20,079 nucleotides of DNA from a virus. The notes below the pieces were generated by a model. That model was not told where the DNA came from. It searched no databases and saw nothing but the letters and a program-made list of their open reading frames with translations. A program made the translations under genes and the position numbers. The stretch spans positions 1 through 20,079 of the IMG/VR virus record IMGVR_UViG_3300028920_000019. One strand, 5' to 3'. This document shows, in pieces, positions 9,295 through 20,079 of this stretch (positions are counted from its first letter, which is position 1; every line of letters begins with the position of its first letter).

Positions 9295-9318
9295 ATAATA
9301 GTTGATAAAATGAAAAAT

Positions 9319-9360
9319 ATAAAAAAAGAGAGAGAGGGAGGGGGGGTCATCCTCCCCTCC
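9319..9360. terminator. Purine-tract hairpin, probable terminator for the minus-strand gene
   Basis: GGAGGGG (9337-9343) pairs with CCCCTCC (9354-9360) over a 10-base loop. Read on the minus strand the hairpin is followed by CTCTCTC and then a long T-rich run, as expected for a terminator downstream of the minus-strand gene that ends at 9382. It also separates the gene from the convergent giant glycoprotein. Confidence 0.5.
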
Positions 9361-9366
9361 AACACC

Positions 9367-9395
9367 AAATCAAGCATATGTTTAATGCTTGATTT
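9367..9395. terminator. 11-bp perfect hairpin between convergent genes
   Basis: AAATCAAGCAT (9367-9377) and ATGCTTGATTT (9385-9395) are perfect complements around a 7-base loop. On the + strand it is followed by TTTT-like sequence, so it can act as a terminator for the giant glycoprotein; on the minus strand its loop carries the stop codon of the 51-residue gene. Confidence 0.55.
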
Positions 9396-9537
9396 TGATG
9401 TATCCGAACAACCCGATAATCATCGAGATTATCAAAACCACAATCAGGAGCTCAAGGAAATCCCCTGTGAGCAAATCCATGATCGGTGTCAGATTTATCT
9501 CGGCAAGTACGGGCAAATCACAGAATATATTCCACAT
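9382..9537 (-). CDS. 51-residue single-pass membrane protein, the only minus-strand gene
   Basis: Minus-strand ATG at 9537-9535, TAA at 9384-9382, with a perfect GAGGTGA site (plus bases 9544-9550) 7 bases upstream of the ATG and a TATA box (plus 9571-9578) at the right distance. The product begins MWNIFCDLPVLAEINLTP and has one hydrophobic helix (LELLIVVLIISMIIGLFGYI) and a short KIKH tail, so the N-terminus is probably outside. It is too short for routine length cut-offs. Context: convergent with the glycoprotein block, divergent from another 52-residue membrane gene. It may be a virion membrane protein, a holin-like protein or an immunity peptide; no homolog is recognised. Confidence 0.7.
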   Translation of the reverse strand: MWNIFCDLPVLAEINLTPIMDLLTGDFLELLIVVLIISMIIGLFGYIKIKH

Positions 9538-9570
9538 CTGTTATCACCTCTAAAAAAGGTATTGTATTAC

Positions 9571-9580
9571 TATATATATC
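9571..9580 (-). promoter_or_regulatory. TATA-box promoter of the minus-strand membrane gene
   Basis: Minus-strand GATATATATA. A start about 25 bases downstream falls near plus 9549, just at the Shine-Dalgarno site, giving a very short leader for the 51-residue gene. It lies back to back with the + strand promoter at 9604. Confidence 0.5.
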
Positions 9581-9598
9581 CAATTTTTCAAAAAACAA

Positions 9599-9618
9599 GG
9601 GGGTTTATATACACCCCC
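9599..9618 (+). promoter_or_regulatory. TATA box enclosed in a palindrome (promoter-operator)
   Basis: GGGGGT (9599-9604) and ACCCCC (9613-9618) are perfect inverted arms around an 8-base spacer containing TTATATAC. The TATA box is correctly placed for the gene at 9647 (start near 9634). A dimeric repressor on these arms would block TBP, so this looks like an operator; one of the element's winged-helix or RHH proteins is the natural candidate. Confidence 0.5.
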
Positions 9619-9646
9619 AGCCATCCAACAGGAGTGAATAATATAC

Positions 9647-9805
9647 ATGGTTGATCCATTACTCATAATGATAGCCGCAATGATACTCATCATCATAACC
9701 CTTATACTTGGGGTCATGCTTTCCATATATATACAGGAAAAAGTAATAAAAATATATCTCACCAACAGAAAATTCAAGGAAATATTCAAAAATGGTAAAA
9801 AATAG
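9647..9805 (+). CDS. 52-residue single-pass membrane protein
   Basis: ATG at 9647 behind AGGAGTG (9630-9636); stop TAG at 9803-9805. The N-terminus is short and outside-like (MVDP), one long hydrophobic helix follows (LLIMIAAMILIIITLILGVM), and then a basic cytoplasmic tail (EKVIKIYLTNRKFKEIFKNG). Below usual length cut-offs, but it has a promoter, a ribosome site and a coupled downstream gene that overlaps its last 14 bases. First gene of the right-hand operon. Role unknown; small basic-tailed membrane proteins of this kind are common in archaeal virions. Confidence 0.68.
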   Translation: MVDPLLIMIAAMILIIITLILGVMLSIYIQEKVIKIYLTNRKFKEIFKNGKK

Positions 9806-12635: not shown

Positions 12636-13247
12636 ATGTTAGAAGGAATTTTCTCGATACTGATATATGCCCTAATTATAGGACTAATGGTTTCATTAGT
12701 CCTAGAGATAGTAAGGCCTTTCCGTGGCGCAATCTCATCACGTAGGTTTCTTTCACGGGATGCTGGTGATAGACTCAGGAAATATCTTGTTAATTGCGCT
12801 AAACTTAATCCCCGTAATTGCAGGGTGTTGAAGATGCGTAGGACTAAATATAATAATGGTGGTAAGATCGGTAAGATAGTGGGTGTTGTCCCCAGTAAGT
12901 TCGTTACTCGTTTCATTATTAAGAGACGTGCTTTTAGTGGTAAACAGATCCTGTATTGCCCGGTGGATATGCATACGAATATATTGTGTCAGGATGTTAT
13001 TGTTAATGCGCTTGGTTTGGAGAATGCAGCTGGTTTTTATTATCCTCATCCGTATGATAAGACTTTGAAGAAGAAGGTGTATAATTTTCTTCAGACAGCT
13101 TTTGATATAGATATGCATAGTATGTTTATTATGGATATGAAGATGATTAATCCGACACAGGTGGAGATGGCTATCGCTGGTGAGAGACCTATTGAGCGTA
13201 TTATCAGGGAGGTTCCTGAAGAGTATGAAGAGGTGATTGAACAATGA
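12636..13247 (+). CDS. Membrane-anchored cytoplasmic protein (pair member 1)
   Basis: 203 residues with GGGGGTC upstream of the ATG. An N-terminal helix (IFSILIYALIIGLMVSLVLE) anchors it; then an Arg/Lys-rich region (RPFRGAISSRRFLSRDAGDR) and a soluble domain of about 150 residues with a basic then acidic end (EVPEEYEEVIEQ). Its last four bases overlap the start of the 251-residue gene, whose GAGGTGA site lies in its end, so the two are made together. The layout (anchor plus inward domain, followed by a similar protein, near a P-loop ATPase) suits a virion-assembly or secretion platform. Function unknown. A perfect 11-bp hairpin lies in the DNA coding its membrane helix. Confidence 0.72.
   Translation: MLEGIFSILIYALIIGLMVSLVLEIVRPFRGAISSRRFLSRDAGDRLRKYLVNCAKLNPRNCRVLKMRRTKYNNGGKIGKIVGVVPSKFVTRFIIKRRAFSGKQILYCPVDMHTNILCQDVIVNALGLENAAGFYYPHPYDKTLKKKVYNFLQTAFDIDMHSMFIMDMKMINPTQVEMAIAGERPIERIIREVPEEYEEVIEQ
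12679..12704 (+). repeat. 11-bp perfect hairpin inside the 203-residue gene
   Basis: TAGGACTAATG (12679-12689) and CATTAGTCCTA (12694-12704) are exact inverted arms with a 4-base loop GTTT, near codon 16 of the gene. Position early in the message suggests translational or transcriptional attenuation; chance codon effects are possible. Confidence 0.6.
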
Positions 13248-13999
13248 TTAATATGTTGATGCCGTTTATTAGTATATATATTGATTTACCACGGATGCTA
13301 TTGGATTATGGCAGCCAGGTTAATGAGGGTGGTGAAGCATGGGTAGCTATCGGCTTGATTGTTTTGATGATGTTGGCTGTTTATGGTCTAACTATACTTA
13401 TTATCAAGTTCATGCTTATTGATAATTTGTTTCCGTTCCTGTTTATTCGTGATTCTATACGTAATCGTATTCGTGTCGCCCGTATTATTTATGGATCCAG
13501 GAATGGTAAGTTATCCCGGTTGAAAAATGCTGATACCCTGCATATCAAGACGAGCTTTATGCCATTGTTTGAAACATTACCTGTCAATGTGGGTGATAAT
13601 AAGATACGGTATAAATGGTGGCGTAGCTATAATATTGAGAATAATGAGATTAAACAGATCGTGTGGGATGATGACGCTAAAACATTTCGTATACAGTATG
13701 AGACACTTACACTGGATGGTGAAACACTTGATGATTATATAATTGATTCCAAGCGGGAATTAAAGAATGTTGCTGTTGGTGTTTCCCAGGGTATACGTGG
13801 CGACTTTAATCTTCAGAAGGATCGTTATTATCTTTCTATCCCACATCCTTTGGATGAGGAGGAGGGAAACGAAACAATGAACCCGAAGGAGCCACATAGC
13901 AGACCCGCACGGGAGATATCAATAAAGGAGTATCAATCTTTATCCGAGGAGGACCGTAAACGGATACATGGCACACATGATGTTGTAATACGGGGGTAA
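13244..13999 (+). CDS. Membrane-anchored cytoplasmic protein (pair member 2)
   Basis: 251 residues; ATG overlaps the previous gene's stop, with GAGGTGA 6 bases upstream. A hydrophobic N-terminus (LMPFISIYIDL) and a strong transmembrane helix (about 33-58: WVAIGLIVLMMLAVYGLTILI) are followed by a basic stretch (RDSIRNRIRVARIIYGSRNG). Then comes a soluble beta-rich domain (KIRYKWWRSYNIENNEIKQI, YETLTLDGETLDDYIID) and a charged C-terminal tail. The design mirrors the preceding protein (anchor, Arg-rich linker, inner domain), although I see no clear sequence similarity. Probably partners. Function not recognised. Confidence 0.72.
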   Translation: MINMLMPFISIYIDLPRMLLDYGSQVNEGGEAWVAIGLIVLMMLAVYGLTILIIKFMLIDNLFPFLFIRDSIRNRIRVARIIYGSRNGKLSRLKNADTLHIKTSFMPLFETLPVNVGDNKIRYKWWRSYNIENNEIKQIVWDDDAKTFRIQYETLTLDGETLDDYIIDSKRELKNVAVGVSQGIRGDFNLQKDRYYLSIPHPLDEEEGNETMNPKEPHSRPAREISIKEYQSLSEEDRKRIHGTHDVVIRG

Positions 14000-17335: not shown

Positions 17336-17614
17336 ATGGAAGCGCAAAATAATAAAGATGGATTAATAGACCTATTGGCACTACTATTAAGCATGATAGT
17401 ACCCCTCATAGCACTCATGATGGTAAACCGTGGCATAGAGATAAAACTAATGGATAATGTATACATAGTTCCCTATACAGATATGTTCCCGGAATGGAGC
17501 CTCTTCTTCTACATTGGTGGTATGTATGCCGCAATCATAACAACCAACTGGATGATCCTATCACACAAAAAAACAATAAGGAACGAAAAAAAACCCAAGG
17601 AATATAAATTATAG
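17336..17614 (+). CDS. Two-helix membrane protein
   Basis: 92 residues with two hydrophobic helices (about 10-31 LIDLLALLLSMIVPLIALMM and 55-76 LFFYIGGMYAAIITTNWMIL) separated by an external loop (GIEIKLMDNVYIVPYTDMFP) and ending in a basic tail (KKTIRNEKKPKEYKL). There is no ribosome site; a TATA-like ATATATT about 25 bases before the ATG (17306-17316) suggests a leaderless transcript. The size and two-helix hairpin are like major coat proteins of spindle-shaped archaeal viruses, or an assembly partner of the ATPase. Function inferred only. Confidence 0.68.
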   Translation: MEAQNNKDGLIDLLALLLSMIVPLIALMMVNRGIEIKLMDNVYIVPYTDMFPEWSLFFYIGGMYAAIITTNWMILSHKKTIRNEKKPKEYKL

Positions 17615-17616
17615 TA

Positions 17617-17637
17617 TTTCCTTTGTTTCCTTTGTTT
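17617..17637 (+). terminator. T-rich terminator with tandem 9-bp repeat
   Basis: TTTCCTTTG occurs twice directly (17617-17625, 17626-17634) and continues TTTC, just after the stop at 17612-17614. Archaeal transcription often ends at T-rich runs of this kind. Confidence 0.5.
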
Positions 17638-17656: not shown

Positions 17657-17664
17657 TATATAAA
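17657..17664 (+). promoter_or_regulatory. TATA box of the structured RNA
   Basis: TATATAAA with a purine-rich BRE-like GAGAAAC upstream. The expected start is near 17685, exactly at the base of the first long complementary arm. Confidence 0.6.
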
Positions 17665-17684: not shown

Positions 17685-18055
17685 ATGAGAACAATGAAAC
17701 ACACACCAAACTCTCACCATGGCCCCGGATGCGGCATTTTTCTTCACCTTTTAAGTGATCATTGTTCTCACAATGGCCAAAGGAAAGCGGCTAAAAAAAC
17801 ACCCGGGGCCTCCCTTTCCGGCAACATGGCGCATGGACTATTTTTCTTTGCCTCCAGCAAAGAGTTAGGCATCCCAACTCCCCCAAATCCATGCGCCTCC
17901 TCACCATGGGGGATGGAACATATGAAGGATGAGATCTTTTTCGAAGACAATTCTAATCACAACTTTACCACAACTCATCCCTCAAACTCGCAATACTCAG
18001 TATGTTTCACCCCCTCCTTAGGCTCCATCAATCACATAAAGGATGGAGGGAAAAA
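17685..18055 (+). ncRNA. Candidate structured non-coding RNA or long leader
   Basis: A gene-free stretch with its own promoter. Complementary arms are long: 17686-17697 with 17759-17770 (12 bp, TGAGAACAATGA); 17721-17728 with 17803-17810 (8 bp, crosses the first, so alternate fold or pseudoknot); 17782-17787 with 17814-17819; 17828-17837 with 17888-17897 (10 bp) enclosing a hairpin 17845-17851/17857-17863 (7 bp); 17927-17933 with 17974-17980 (7 bp); 18023-18029 with 18042-18048 (7 bp) over the downstream ribosome site. An open frame 17685-18062 exists, but its composition (His/Pro/Ser rich, no motif) is unlike a protein and it lacks a ribosome site. It may be a trans-acting RNA or a regulatory leader of the gene at 18059. 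No known family is recognised. Confidence 0.5.
18023..18048 (+). promoter_or_regulatory. Hairpin that can cover the ribosome site of the next gene
   Basis: CTCCATC (18023-18029) pairs with GATGGAG (18042-18048), which overlaps the Shine-Dalgarno GGAGG (18045-18049) of the gene starting at 18059. Formation of the hairpin would hide the site. Confidence 0.45.
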
Positions 18056-18058
18056 AAC

Positions 18059-18110
18059 ATGAAAAATGCCGAAAAAAGAACAATAAAAGCGGTGGGTGAC
18101 CGAGGAGAAA
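18059..18110 (+). repeat. 52-bp perfect direct repeat, copy 1
   Basis: Identical to 18727-18778; begins exactly at the ATG of a 46-residue gene and covers its first 17 codons. The unit length between copies is 668 bp. Confidence 0.9.
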
Positions 18111-18199
18111 AGAAAACAAAAAAAGATGAACACTTCATAGACCACGAACACAGCATATTCATTGGGTGGTTCAGATACGGGGATCTGGTGAAAGCATGA
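18059..18199 (+). CDS. 46-residue protein, twin 1
   Basis: ATG at 18059 behind GGAGGG (18045-18050). The first 17 residues (MKNAEKRTIKAVGDRGE) are identical to those of the twin at 18727; then sequences differ, though both keep a W-x-x-Y-x-x-L pattern near the end (here GWFRYGDLVKA) and both are exactly 46 residues. Very basic N-terminal half (KKTKKDEH). Its stop overlaps the start of the exported protein gene (ATGA). No family recognised; possibly a regulatory protein. Confidence 0.65.
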   Translation: MKNAEKRTIKAVGDRGEKKTKKDEHFIDHEHSIFIGWFRYGDLVKA

Positions 18200-18714
18200 A
18201 AACACTAGGAACATTAATAATAATGGGTATGCTCGCACTACCCACGATCTCAGCAACAGCCTCAGGAATAATGATAGAGCCGAAACAAATAGACATACGA
18301 ATGGATTATGGAGATGATAACCCCATAGAACAAGTAAGAATAACAAACAATGAAGATACCGAAATAACAATAAAATTATCTTCGCAAGGAGAAATAAACA
18401 CATGGATAAGCAATACTGTGATAACATTAGATAAACATGAAACAGAAACAATCCAATTATATATAAACCCTGAATATGAAAAAGATTTATTTGGGAAATA
18501 TGATTCGATTAAAACTCAAAAAGGGATCATAGAATACAAATGGGAAAATGATGACAGTGCCGAAACAGAAATACAATATCTATCAATACAGGATGTAGAT
18601 GCAGGAAAAAGCGAAACACAACAATTAGCAGAATCCCCAGGTGATTTAATTGTAATAGGAGTTGTGATATCAGCACTGGTAATAATTGGGGTAATAACTA
18701 TATCTCGACATTGA
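18196..18714 (+). CDS. Membrane-anchored extracellular beta-domain protein
   Basis: 172 residues from the ATG at 18196, which overlaps the previous stop; an in-frame ATG at 18166 would give 182 but lies inside the previous gene and has no signal-like start. Signal peptide (LGTLIIMGMLALPTISATA), one Ig-like beta domain (about 25-140: QVRITNNEDTEITIKLSSQG, ETIQLYINPEYEKDLFGKYD), and a C-terminal transmembrane helix (DLIVIGVVISALVIIGVITI). In contrast to the large glycoproteins it has essentially no N-X-S/T sites. It lies between the two 52-bp direct repeats. It may be a surface or superinfection-exclusion protein; inference only. Confidence 0.72.
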   Translation: MKTLGTLIIMGMLALPTISATASGIMIEPKQIDIRMDYGDDNPIEQVRITNNEDTEITIKLSSQGEINTWISNTVITLDKHETETIQLYINPEYEKDLFGKYDSIKTQKGIIEYKWENDDSAETEIQYLSIQDVDAGKSETQQLAESPGDLIVIGVVISALVIIGVITISRH

Positions 18715-18726
18715 TGAGGTGAAAAT

Positions 18727-18778
18727 ATGAAAAATGCCGAAAAAAGAACAATAAAAGCGGTGGGTGACCGAGGAGAAA
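18727..18778 (+). repeat. 52-bp perfect direct repeat, copy 2
   Basis: Second copy of 18059-18110; the left border is at the start codon and the right border is one base into the 18th codon. Confidence 0.9.
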
Positions 18779-18867
18779 TGTGTGAAGTAGAAGTGCATAA
18801 CCCACATCTCAATGTGGAAGCAATATTCTGGATGCCCTACAAAGAACTCAAGAGGCTGTTCGAATGA
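18727..18867 (+). CDS. 46-residue protein, twin 2
   Basis: ATG at 18727 behind GAGGTGA (18716-18722). N-terminal 17 residues identical to the twin at 18059, then a different C-terminal half (MCEVEVHNPHLNVEAIFWMP, then YKELKRLFE). Same length and a related W-x-x-Y-x-x-L end, so the two are paralogs with an identical start rather than a simple copy. Its stop overlaps the ATG of the next gene (ATGA). Function unknown. Confidence 0.65.
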   Translation: MKNAEKRTIKAVGDRGEMCEVEVHNPHLNVEAIFWMPYKELKRLFE

Positions 18868-19281: not shown

Positions 19282-19327
19282 AGCACGGGAAAACTGTGTG
19301 ATAGCATACAATATAGAATGCAGCTAC

Positions 19328-19392
19328 TATACTAATATAATGTTATATTATATTATTATATATTATATCATTATATCATTATCCTTTTATAC
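19328..19392. promoter_or_regulatory. AT-rich palindromic region, candidate origin or operator, with promoter
   Basis: Nearly pure A/T. TAATATAA-TG-TTATATTA (19333-19350) is a perfect 18-bp palindrome, followed by the repeated unit ATTATATC (near 19364-19379). TTTTATAC at 19385-19392 is a TATA box for the gene at 19418 (near-leaderless). Such easily melted DNA beside an RHH gene could be the replication origin or the RHH operator; it cannot be proven here. Confidence 0.4.
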
Positions 19393-19850: not shown

Positions 19851-20079
19851 ATGGGGGGGATGAAGCACAAAGCGGTTATACAATATGTGGTGGATTGCGG
19901 GGGGTTCGTTCCTCTCCGCTCCTCATCTCCTTCTCTTTATAAAGGGATAAGTGACATCTATATGCTCAAAGGAAGCTTCGCCTCTAATAATCGGCGCAGA
20001 CATCAGGTCGCAACTGTTCTCATCAATAACGGGTTCCTCGAATGGGACAAGGATGATGATATCGTGTATGTCACAGAGA
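19851..20079 (+). CDS. Small winged-helix DNA-binding protein, 5' part (continues at base 1)
   Basis: Starts at ATG 19851 (GGTGA 8 bases before it) or at ATG 19860, both in frame; the reading frame runs off the end and is completed in the first 159 bases because 19953-20079 duplicates 1-127. N-terminal part: KHKAVIQYVVDCGGFVPLRS then SLYKGISDIYMLKGSFASNN, consistent with the first helices of a winged helix. The stop of the RHH gene lies one base upstream, so RHH, winged helix and phosphoesterase probably form one operon. Confidence 0.78.
   Translation, partial: MGGMKHKAVIQYVVDCGGFVPLRSSSPSLYKGISDIYMLKGSFASNNRRRHQVATVLINNGFLEWDKDDDIVYVTE
19953..20079. repeat. Terminal direct repeat, right copy (circular overlap)
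   Basis: Exact duplicate of bases 1-127, produced by circular closure; unique length is 19,952 bp. Confidence 0.95.

Follow-up and report, generated by a model that had tools for sequence, protein, structure and literature searches.

The stretch at 17685-18055 of the window (the whole of the DNA analysed, an IMG/VR virus record of 20,079 nt) lies between the gene at 17336-17614 and the gene that begins at 18059; the features of the locus are collected in Table 1. The stop codon of the upstream gene is followed by the T-rich sequence TTTCCTTTGTTTCCTTTGTTTC. The window contains 17 matches to the pattern TWTATAWA, a match alone being weak evidence for a TATA box. The copy at 17657 is intergenic with the right spacing, 25-30 nt upstream of the predicted start, and is preceded by the purine-rich sequence GAGAAAC, a BRE-like element. 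The TATA box which an earlier note on this DNA had placed after the T-rich tract was recovered at 17657-17664 and is a plausible archaeal promoter at the right distance to the start. Gene 18059 is preceded by a strong Shine-Dalgarno sequence, GGAGGG, and ATGA overlaps join 18059 to 18196 and 18727 to 18864. No informative Pfam match was obtained for the protein encoded at 18196-18714. The sequences 18059-18106 and 18722-18768 form a near-identical duplication of 47 bp within genes for two small paralogous proteins with diverged ends, and appear to stem from a recent duplication or gene conversion. A search for terminator-like sites between the predicted start and gene 18059, including near 18055, found none, and the plus strand near 18055 carries an A-run, not a T-run. 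The simplest reading of this arrangement would be one operon with a long leader.

Table 1. Features at and around the candidate leader (window positions).
Feature	Position	Strand	Remarks
T-rich tract, possibly an archaeal-type terminator for the upstream operon	17617-17635	+	TTTCCTTTG repeated twice
Putative TATA box	17657-17664	+	TATATAAA; start predicted at ~17685-17687
Candidate structured leader	17685-18055	+	Non-coding; GC-rich (46%), C-rich
Helix P1, left arm	17686-17697	+	TGAGAACAATGA; perfect 12 bp with 17759-17770
Motif copy 1	17713-17722	+	CTCACCATGG
Helix P2, left arm	17721-17728	+	GGCCCCGG; within the P1 loop; pseudoknot with P1 if formed
11-nt segment	17732-17742	+	CGGCATTTTTC; perfect complement of the start regions of genes 18059 and 18727
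Helix P1, right arm	17759-17770	+	TCATTGTTCTCA
Motif copy 2	17767-17776	+	CTCACAATGG
Helix P2, right arm	17803-17810	+	CCGGGGCC
Helix P3, left arm	17828-17837	+	GGCGCATGGA; perfect 10 bp with 17888-17897
Small hairpin inside P3	17845-17863	+	TCTTTGC-ctcca-GCAAAGA; read from the sequence; partly formed in the predicted fold
Helix P3, right arm	17888-17897	+	TCCATGCGCC
Motif copy 3	17900-17909	+	
Long irregular hairpin	17908-18014	+	GGGGG/CCCCC, TGGAACATA/TATGTTTCA, GATGAG/CTCATC; predicted fold
Hairpin predicted to hide the Shine-Dalgarno GGAGG of gene 18059	18023-18048	+	CTCCATC/GATGGAG, 7 bp; pair probabilities 0.93-0.99
Gene for a small protein (46 aa), leading the presumed operon	18059-18199	+	Own frame best by codon score
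Partner of 17732-17742, overlapping the start codon of gene 18059	18061-18071	+	GAAAAATGCCG
Secreted or membrane protein, 172 aa	18196-18714	+	ATGA overlap with gene 18059
Paralogue of gene 18059	18727-18867	+	First 17 residues identical

The window carries a perfect terminal direct repeat of 127 bp (1-127 = 19953-20079). With this identity of its two ends, the record most likely represents a complete circular genome of ~19,952 bp, from a dsDNA virus. Genes were recognised on the plus strand only, and few proteins could be assigned; they include a protein with an HTH plus a metallophosphoesterase, a small cytosine-5 DNA methyltransferase, a serine recombinase and an ATPase-like protein related to phrog_1979 (PHROGs). 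The large secreted-looking proteins gave poor matches only. A Sulfolobus plasmid-type HTH scored above the cut-off in one search and just under it in another, and Pfam returned a DUF11 match among the virus proteins. These proteins, together with the style of the promoter, suggest that the host is likely an archaeon. No relatives were found in viral contigs with five whole proteins, one ATPase fragment and two DNA patterns as queries, the reach of the pattern-based scans being close relatives only, and phage records searched with blastn and tblastn yielded no useful match. Region 13244-13999 had no match in plasmids, the plasmid search otherwise returning only remote methyltransferases, and the resolvase matched four bacterial loci among genome contigs at 37-59% identity. 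ORF 161-1264 matched three remote exonuclease-like proteins; its coding sequence contains a perfect 13-bp inverted repeat (231-243/280-292). An extremely AT-rich stretch of ~65 bp (19325-19390) precedes gene 19418 and is a candidate DNA-unwinding element or promoter.

The earlier note had described 17685-18055 as gene-free, although the frame 17685-18062 is open for 125 codons. A leaderless 125-codon protein gene, beginning at the promoter's start site, would explain the ATG at the predicted start, the frame open from 17685 to 18062 and the ATGA overlap of this ORF with gene 18059. The coding capacity of the frame was evaluated with a codon model trained on a reference set of 18 other genes of the same virus, in all 18 of which the true frame scored highest (with a small margin in a few). 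The own frame of ORF 17685-18062 scored -0.235 per codon and the five other frames -0.17 to -0.33, two of them higher, and no frame carried a codon signal. The GC content by codon position was flat (0.43, 0.47 and 0.48), unlike that of all 18 reference genes, and a fully open frame of such length appeared in 6.5% of dinucleotide shuffles. An AlphaFold single-sequence model of the 125-codon frame had a pLDDT of 31 and was devoid of secondary structure, whereas the control, a different orphan protein from this virus, was mostly helical with a pLDDT of 52. No match for the ORF was found in Pfam or PHROGs. A protein gene is scarcely credible on this evidence, and the protein-coding reading was rejected on the codon score, which showed no advantage of the own frame, and on the disordered model. 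These results indicate that 17685-18055 is non-coding, in agreement with the earlier description. Rfam, riboswitches and phage RNAs included, contained no match for the stretch at the gathering threshold, and at a low threshold it returned a single chance match to the MIR533 microRNA model (E 0.37; 18.6 bits against a cut-off of 80); no tRNA was found. An RNA from this stretch would therefore be previously unrecognised, as had been claimed.

The 12-bp and 10-bp complementary arms reported earlier (P1 and P3, respectively) were found to be exact and perfect at the positions given for them, the latter enclosing the 7-bp hairpin with arms TCTTTGC/GCAAAGA (17845-17851/17857-17863). An overlapping alternative to the small hairpin pairs 17862-17869 with 17873-17880. 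The strongest alternative pairing is the GC helix P2, GGCCCCGG/CCGGGGCC, one arm of which sits in the P1 loop; a pseudoknot with P1 is possible, as the earlier note had anticipated. The longest arm (12 bp) compares with a shuffle mean of 7.3, and 1 of 300 region shuffles reached 12, while none of the 300 contained at least two perfect arms of at least 10 bp. The minimum free energy (MFE) of 17685-18056 was -103 kcal/mol on the plus strand (z -3.9) and -134 kcal/mol on the minus strand (z -4.0), and none of 200 shuffles folded as well on either strand. With the fold carried to 18072 the plus-strand z was -4.2, again equalled by none of 200 shuffles. In the 20-kb genome, 6 perfect arms of at least 10 bp were counted against 1-5 in five shuffles, two of the six being in 17685-18055, and a fold scan in 150-nt windows placed this stretch among the best, behind 9301-9450. 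The statement that such long arms are unlikely by chance thus holds against shuffles of the region and is weaker genome-wide. The excess of structure in 17685-18055 is likely, but not overwhelmingly so, to be real; it is only modest since the region was chosen as the best of 20 kb, a choice after which the significance of the arms is, as a rough estimate, a modest ~0.05.

The second strongly foldable stretch, 9301-9500 (z -6.2 on the plus strand), has hairpins GGAGGGGGGG/CCTCCCCTCC and AAATCAAGCAT/ATGCTTGATTT and lies within ORF 9310-9654, itself doubtful, which follows a large gene of structural type.

The motif CTCAC[CA]ATGG has three exact copies in the 20 kb, which start at 17713, 17767 and 17900 and not at 17712, 17766 and 17898 as first listed. 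Its recurrence stands as an observation and is weak in statistical terms, since 6.7% of shuffles had three copies with at most one mismatch (P 0.07). The copies were also considered as initiation sites of small upstream ORFs with 11, 28 and 8 codons, a proposal that found no other support and was rejected. The sequence CCTCC, which resembles an anti-Shine-Dalgarno, occurs 4 times in 17685-18055 and 9 times on the whole plus strand of the window.

When the fold was extended through the start of gene 18059, the segments 17732-17742 and 18061-18071 formed an 11-bp helix with a pair probability of 0.84. The same 11-nt target recurs at the paralogue 18727 (18729-18739) by way of the 47-bp repeat. 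A perfect 11-nt complement to the 48-nt target was present in 0.55% of shuffled leaders (P 0.0055), the target having been noticed after looking. P1, P2 and the long-range helix are mutually exclusive in a nested model, and the corresponding conformers differ by less than 4 kcal/mol (-113.1, -113.0 and -116.7 kcal/mol, respectively). Taken as a whole, the start region is not unusually occluded, with 10% of shuffled leaders equally closed (P 0.1). Since the pairing of the 11-nt complement has two competing helices within 4 kcal/mol, the models make a translational switch at gene 18059 plausible.

Taken together, the results point tentatively, with a probability of roughly 0.4, to 17685-18055 as a structured 5' leader of ~375 nt on the 18059-18196-18727-18864 mRNA of a circular dsDNA, probably archaeal, virus. 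A free-standing non-coding RNA from the plus strand, either trans-acting or packaged in particles, would also account for the promoter-like box and the foldability, and its segment 17732-17742 could base-pair in trans at the starts of both 18059 and 18727. Such an RNA, which the earlier note had offered as an option, is not supported, as a terminator is absent near 18055 and the stretch continues with a Shine-Dalgarno sequence into gene 18059. An RNA of its own is consequently less likely than a 5' leader; with the direct junction to a gene that has its own Shine-Dalgarno, and with none of the Rfam families matched, it is quite improbable. Of the three roles proposed earlier, namely a trans-acting RNA, a packaged RNA or a switch for gene 18059, the switch is the best, and the free-standing options are not supported. 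A structured minus-strand RNA that runs antisense to the leader and is folded into two branched domains (~17825-17912 and 17721-17810), is improbable. It draws on the MFE of 17720-17912, for which z was -5.4 on the minus strand against -2.7 on the plus strand, on a minus-strand gain from G-U pairs of -23 against -12 ± 3 in shuffles, and on a hairpin in the predicted minus-strand fold, CAUUGU-GAGA-ACAAUG, with a GAGA (GNRA) cap. However, that sub-region was picked after looking, 17800-18072 leans to the plus strand, and the region as a whole folds equally on both. Upstream on the minus strand there is no convincing promoter, only TTTTATTG near 18087-18080, and the excess of A-C over G-T mismatches partly reflects base composition, in counts that are incomplete because the stem list omits stems with an innermost wobble pair. 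A strand call by G-U pairs was likewise rejected, as the minus-strand signal is confined to 17720-17912, is absent region-wide and is partly due to base composition.

The equal folding of both strands, the perfect Watson-Crick arms and the few G-U pairs on the plus strand are also what a DNA-level element would show, either a replication origin, a replication-protein binding region or a recombination site, in which proteins would bind the hairpins and the CTCAC[CA]ATGG repeats. The confinement of the repeated motif to 17685-18055 within the 20 kb, the circular genome and the precedent of SNJ2, an archaeal virus with origins made of hairpins and inverted repeats in a non-coding stretch (PMC13107129), agree with this explanation. 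Against it, the 20 sequences scanned with Pfam contained no Rep family, neither Rep-Arvir (PF25227, DUF7845) nor a rolling-circle family, the most AT-rich stretch and better unwinding site is elsewhere (~19325-19390), and the promoter-like box is directed into the region. A DNA element is therefore considered rather improbable. Greater weight is given to the absence of any selected structure, that is, to a non-coding spacer or decayed sequence whose inverted repeats and fold energy are the extreme that chance would produce in a 20-kb genome, and which was picked for its looks. The genome-wide arm count (6 against 1-5), the better fold at 9301-9450, the P values of 0.07 for motif recurrence and 0.1 for start occlusion, and the ambiguous strand signal all favor chance. 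It is nonetheless unlikely to be the explanation, as two arms of at least 10 bp and a z of about -4 coincide in one gene-free stretch of 371 nt in an otherwise gene-dense virus, and no shuffle did as well for arms (0/300) or fold (0/200).

The transcription of the 5' leader, its strand and both the switch and the trigger are our inferences. The TATA box at 17657 would direct initiation near 17686, and the leader would mask the first ribosome-binding site twice, with GGAGG held in the 18023-18048 hairpin and the start codon held by the 11-bp long-range helix. Both the small protein and the membrane protein coupled to it through the ATGA overlap would thereby be translated at a low level. The segment 17732-17742 is in the P1 loop and adjoins the P2 arm, and formation of either P1 or P2 is predicted to compete with the pairing at the start. 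In a pseudoknot variant, P1 would present its loop for pairing with the partner of P2 or with the start codon. A protein, a small molecule or temperature may favor the alternative fold and release translation, a virus protein being our guess for the trigger. Since the 47-bp repeat carries the same 11-nt target to 18727, the leader could act on both starts, 18059 and 18727. That it represents a new class of RNA switch, in which a pseudoknotted leader with a loop antisense to the start region common to two paralogues sets both in cis and possibly in trans, is a long shot. At present the leader is an orphan candidate from one genome. If real, it would offer a small and concrete example, open to testing, of how a probable archaeal virus controls translation. 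To our knowledge, regulatory RNA in archaeal viruses has hardly been described.

The packaging RNA of phage phi29 is a structured non-coding RNA borne by a virus. GOLLD and ROOL are large phage-associated RNAs (PMC12286853). The candidate resembles all three in being virus-borne, structured and non-coding, and differs in that it has no Rfam match and no terminator of its own and is located directly upstream of a gene. The origin of the pleolipovirus SNJ2 comprises a hairpin and inverted repeats in a non-coding stretch of a circular archaeal virus (PMC13107129), and the likeness lies in a non-coding region of hairpins and inverted repeats in a circular, here probably archaeal, virus. Compared with that origin, the candidate is larger and more complex, and neither a Rep-Arvir (DUF7845) protein in the scanned set nor a recognised initiator adjacent to it was found. 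A further comparison is with structured 5' leaders and riboswitches in which the Shine-Dalgarno sequence is concealed, exemplified by the SAM/SAH pseudoknot riboswitch (PMC7367207). Relative to riboswitches of this type the candidate is much longer, is preceded by an archaeal-type promoter, and comes without an Rfam match, a known ligand or known conservation. In its predicted folds it has in common with them mutually exclusive helices, a ribosome-binding site enclosed in a hairpin and a possible pseudoknot.
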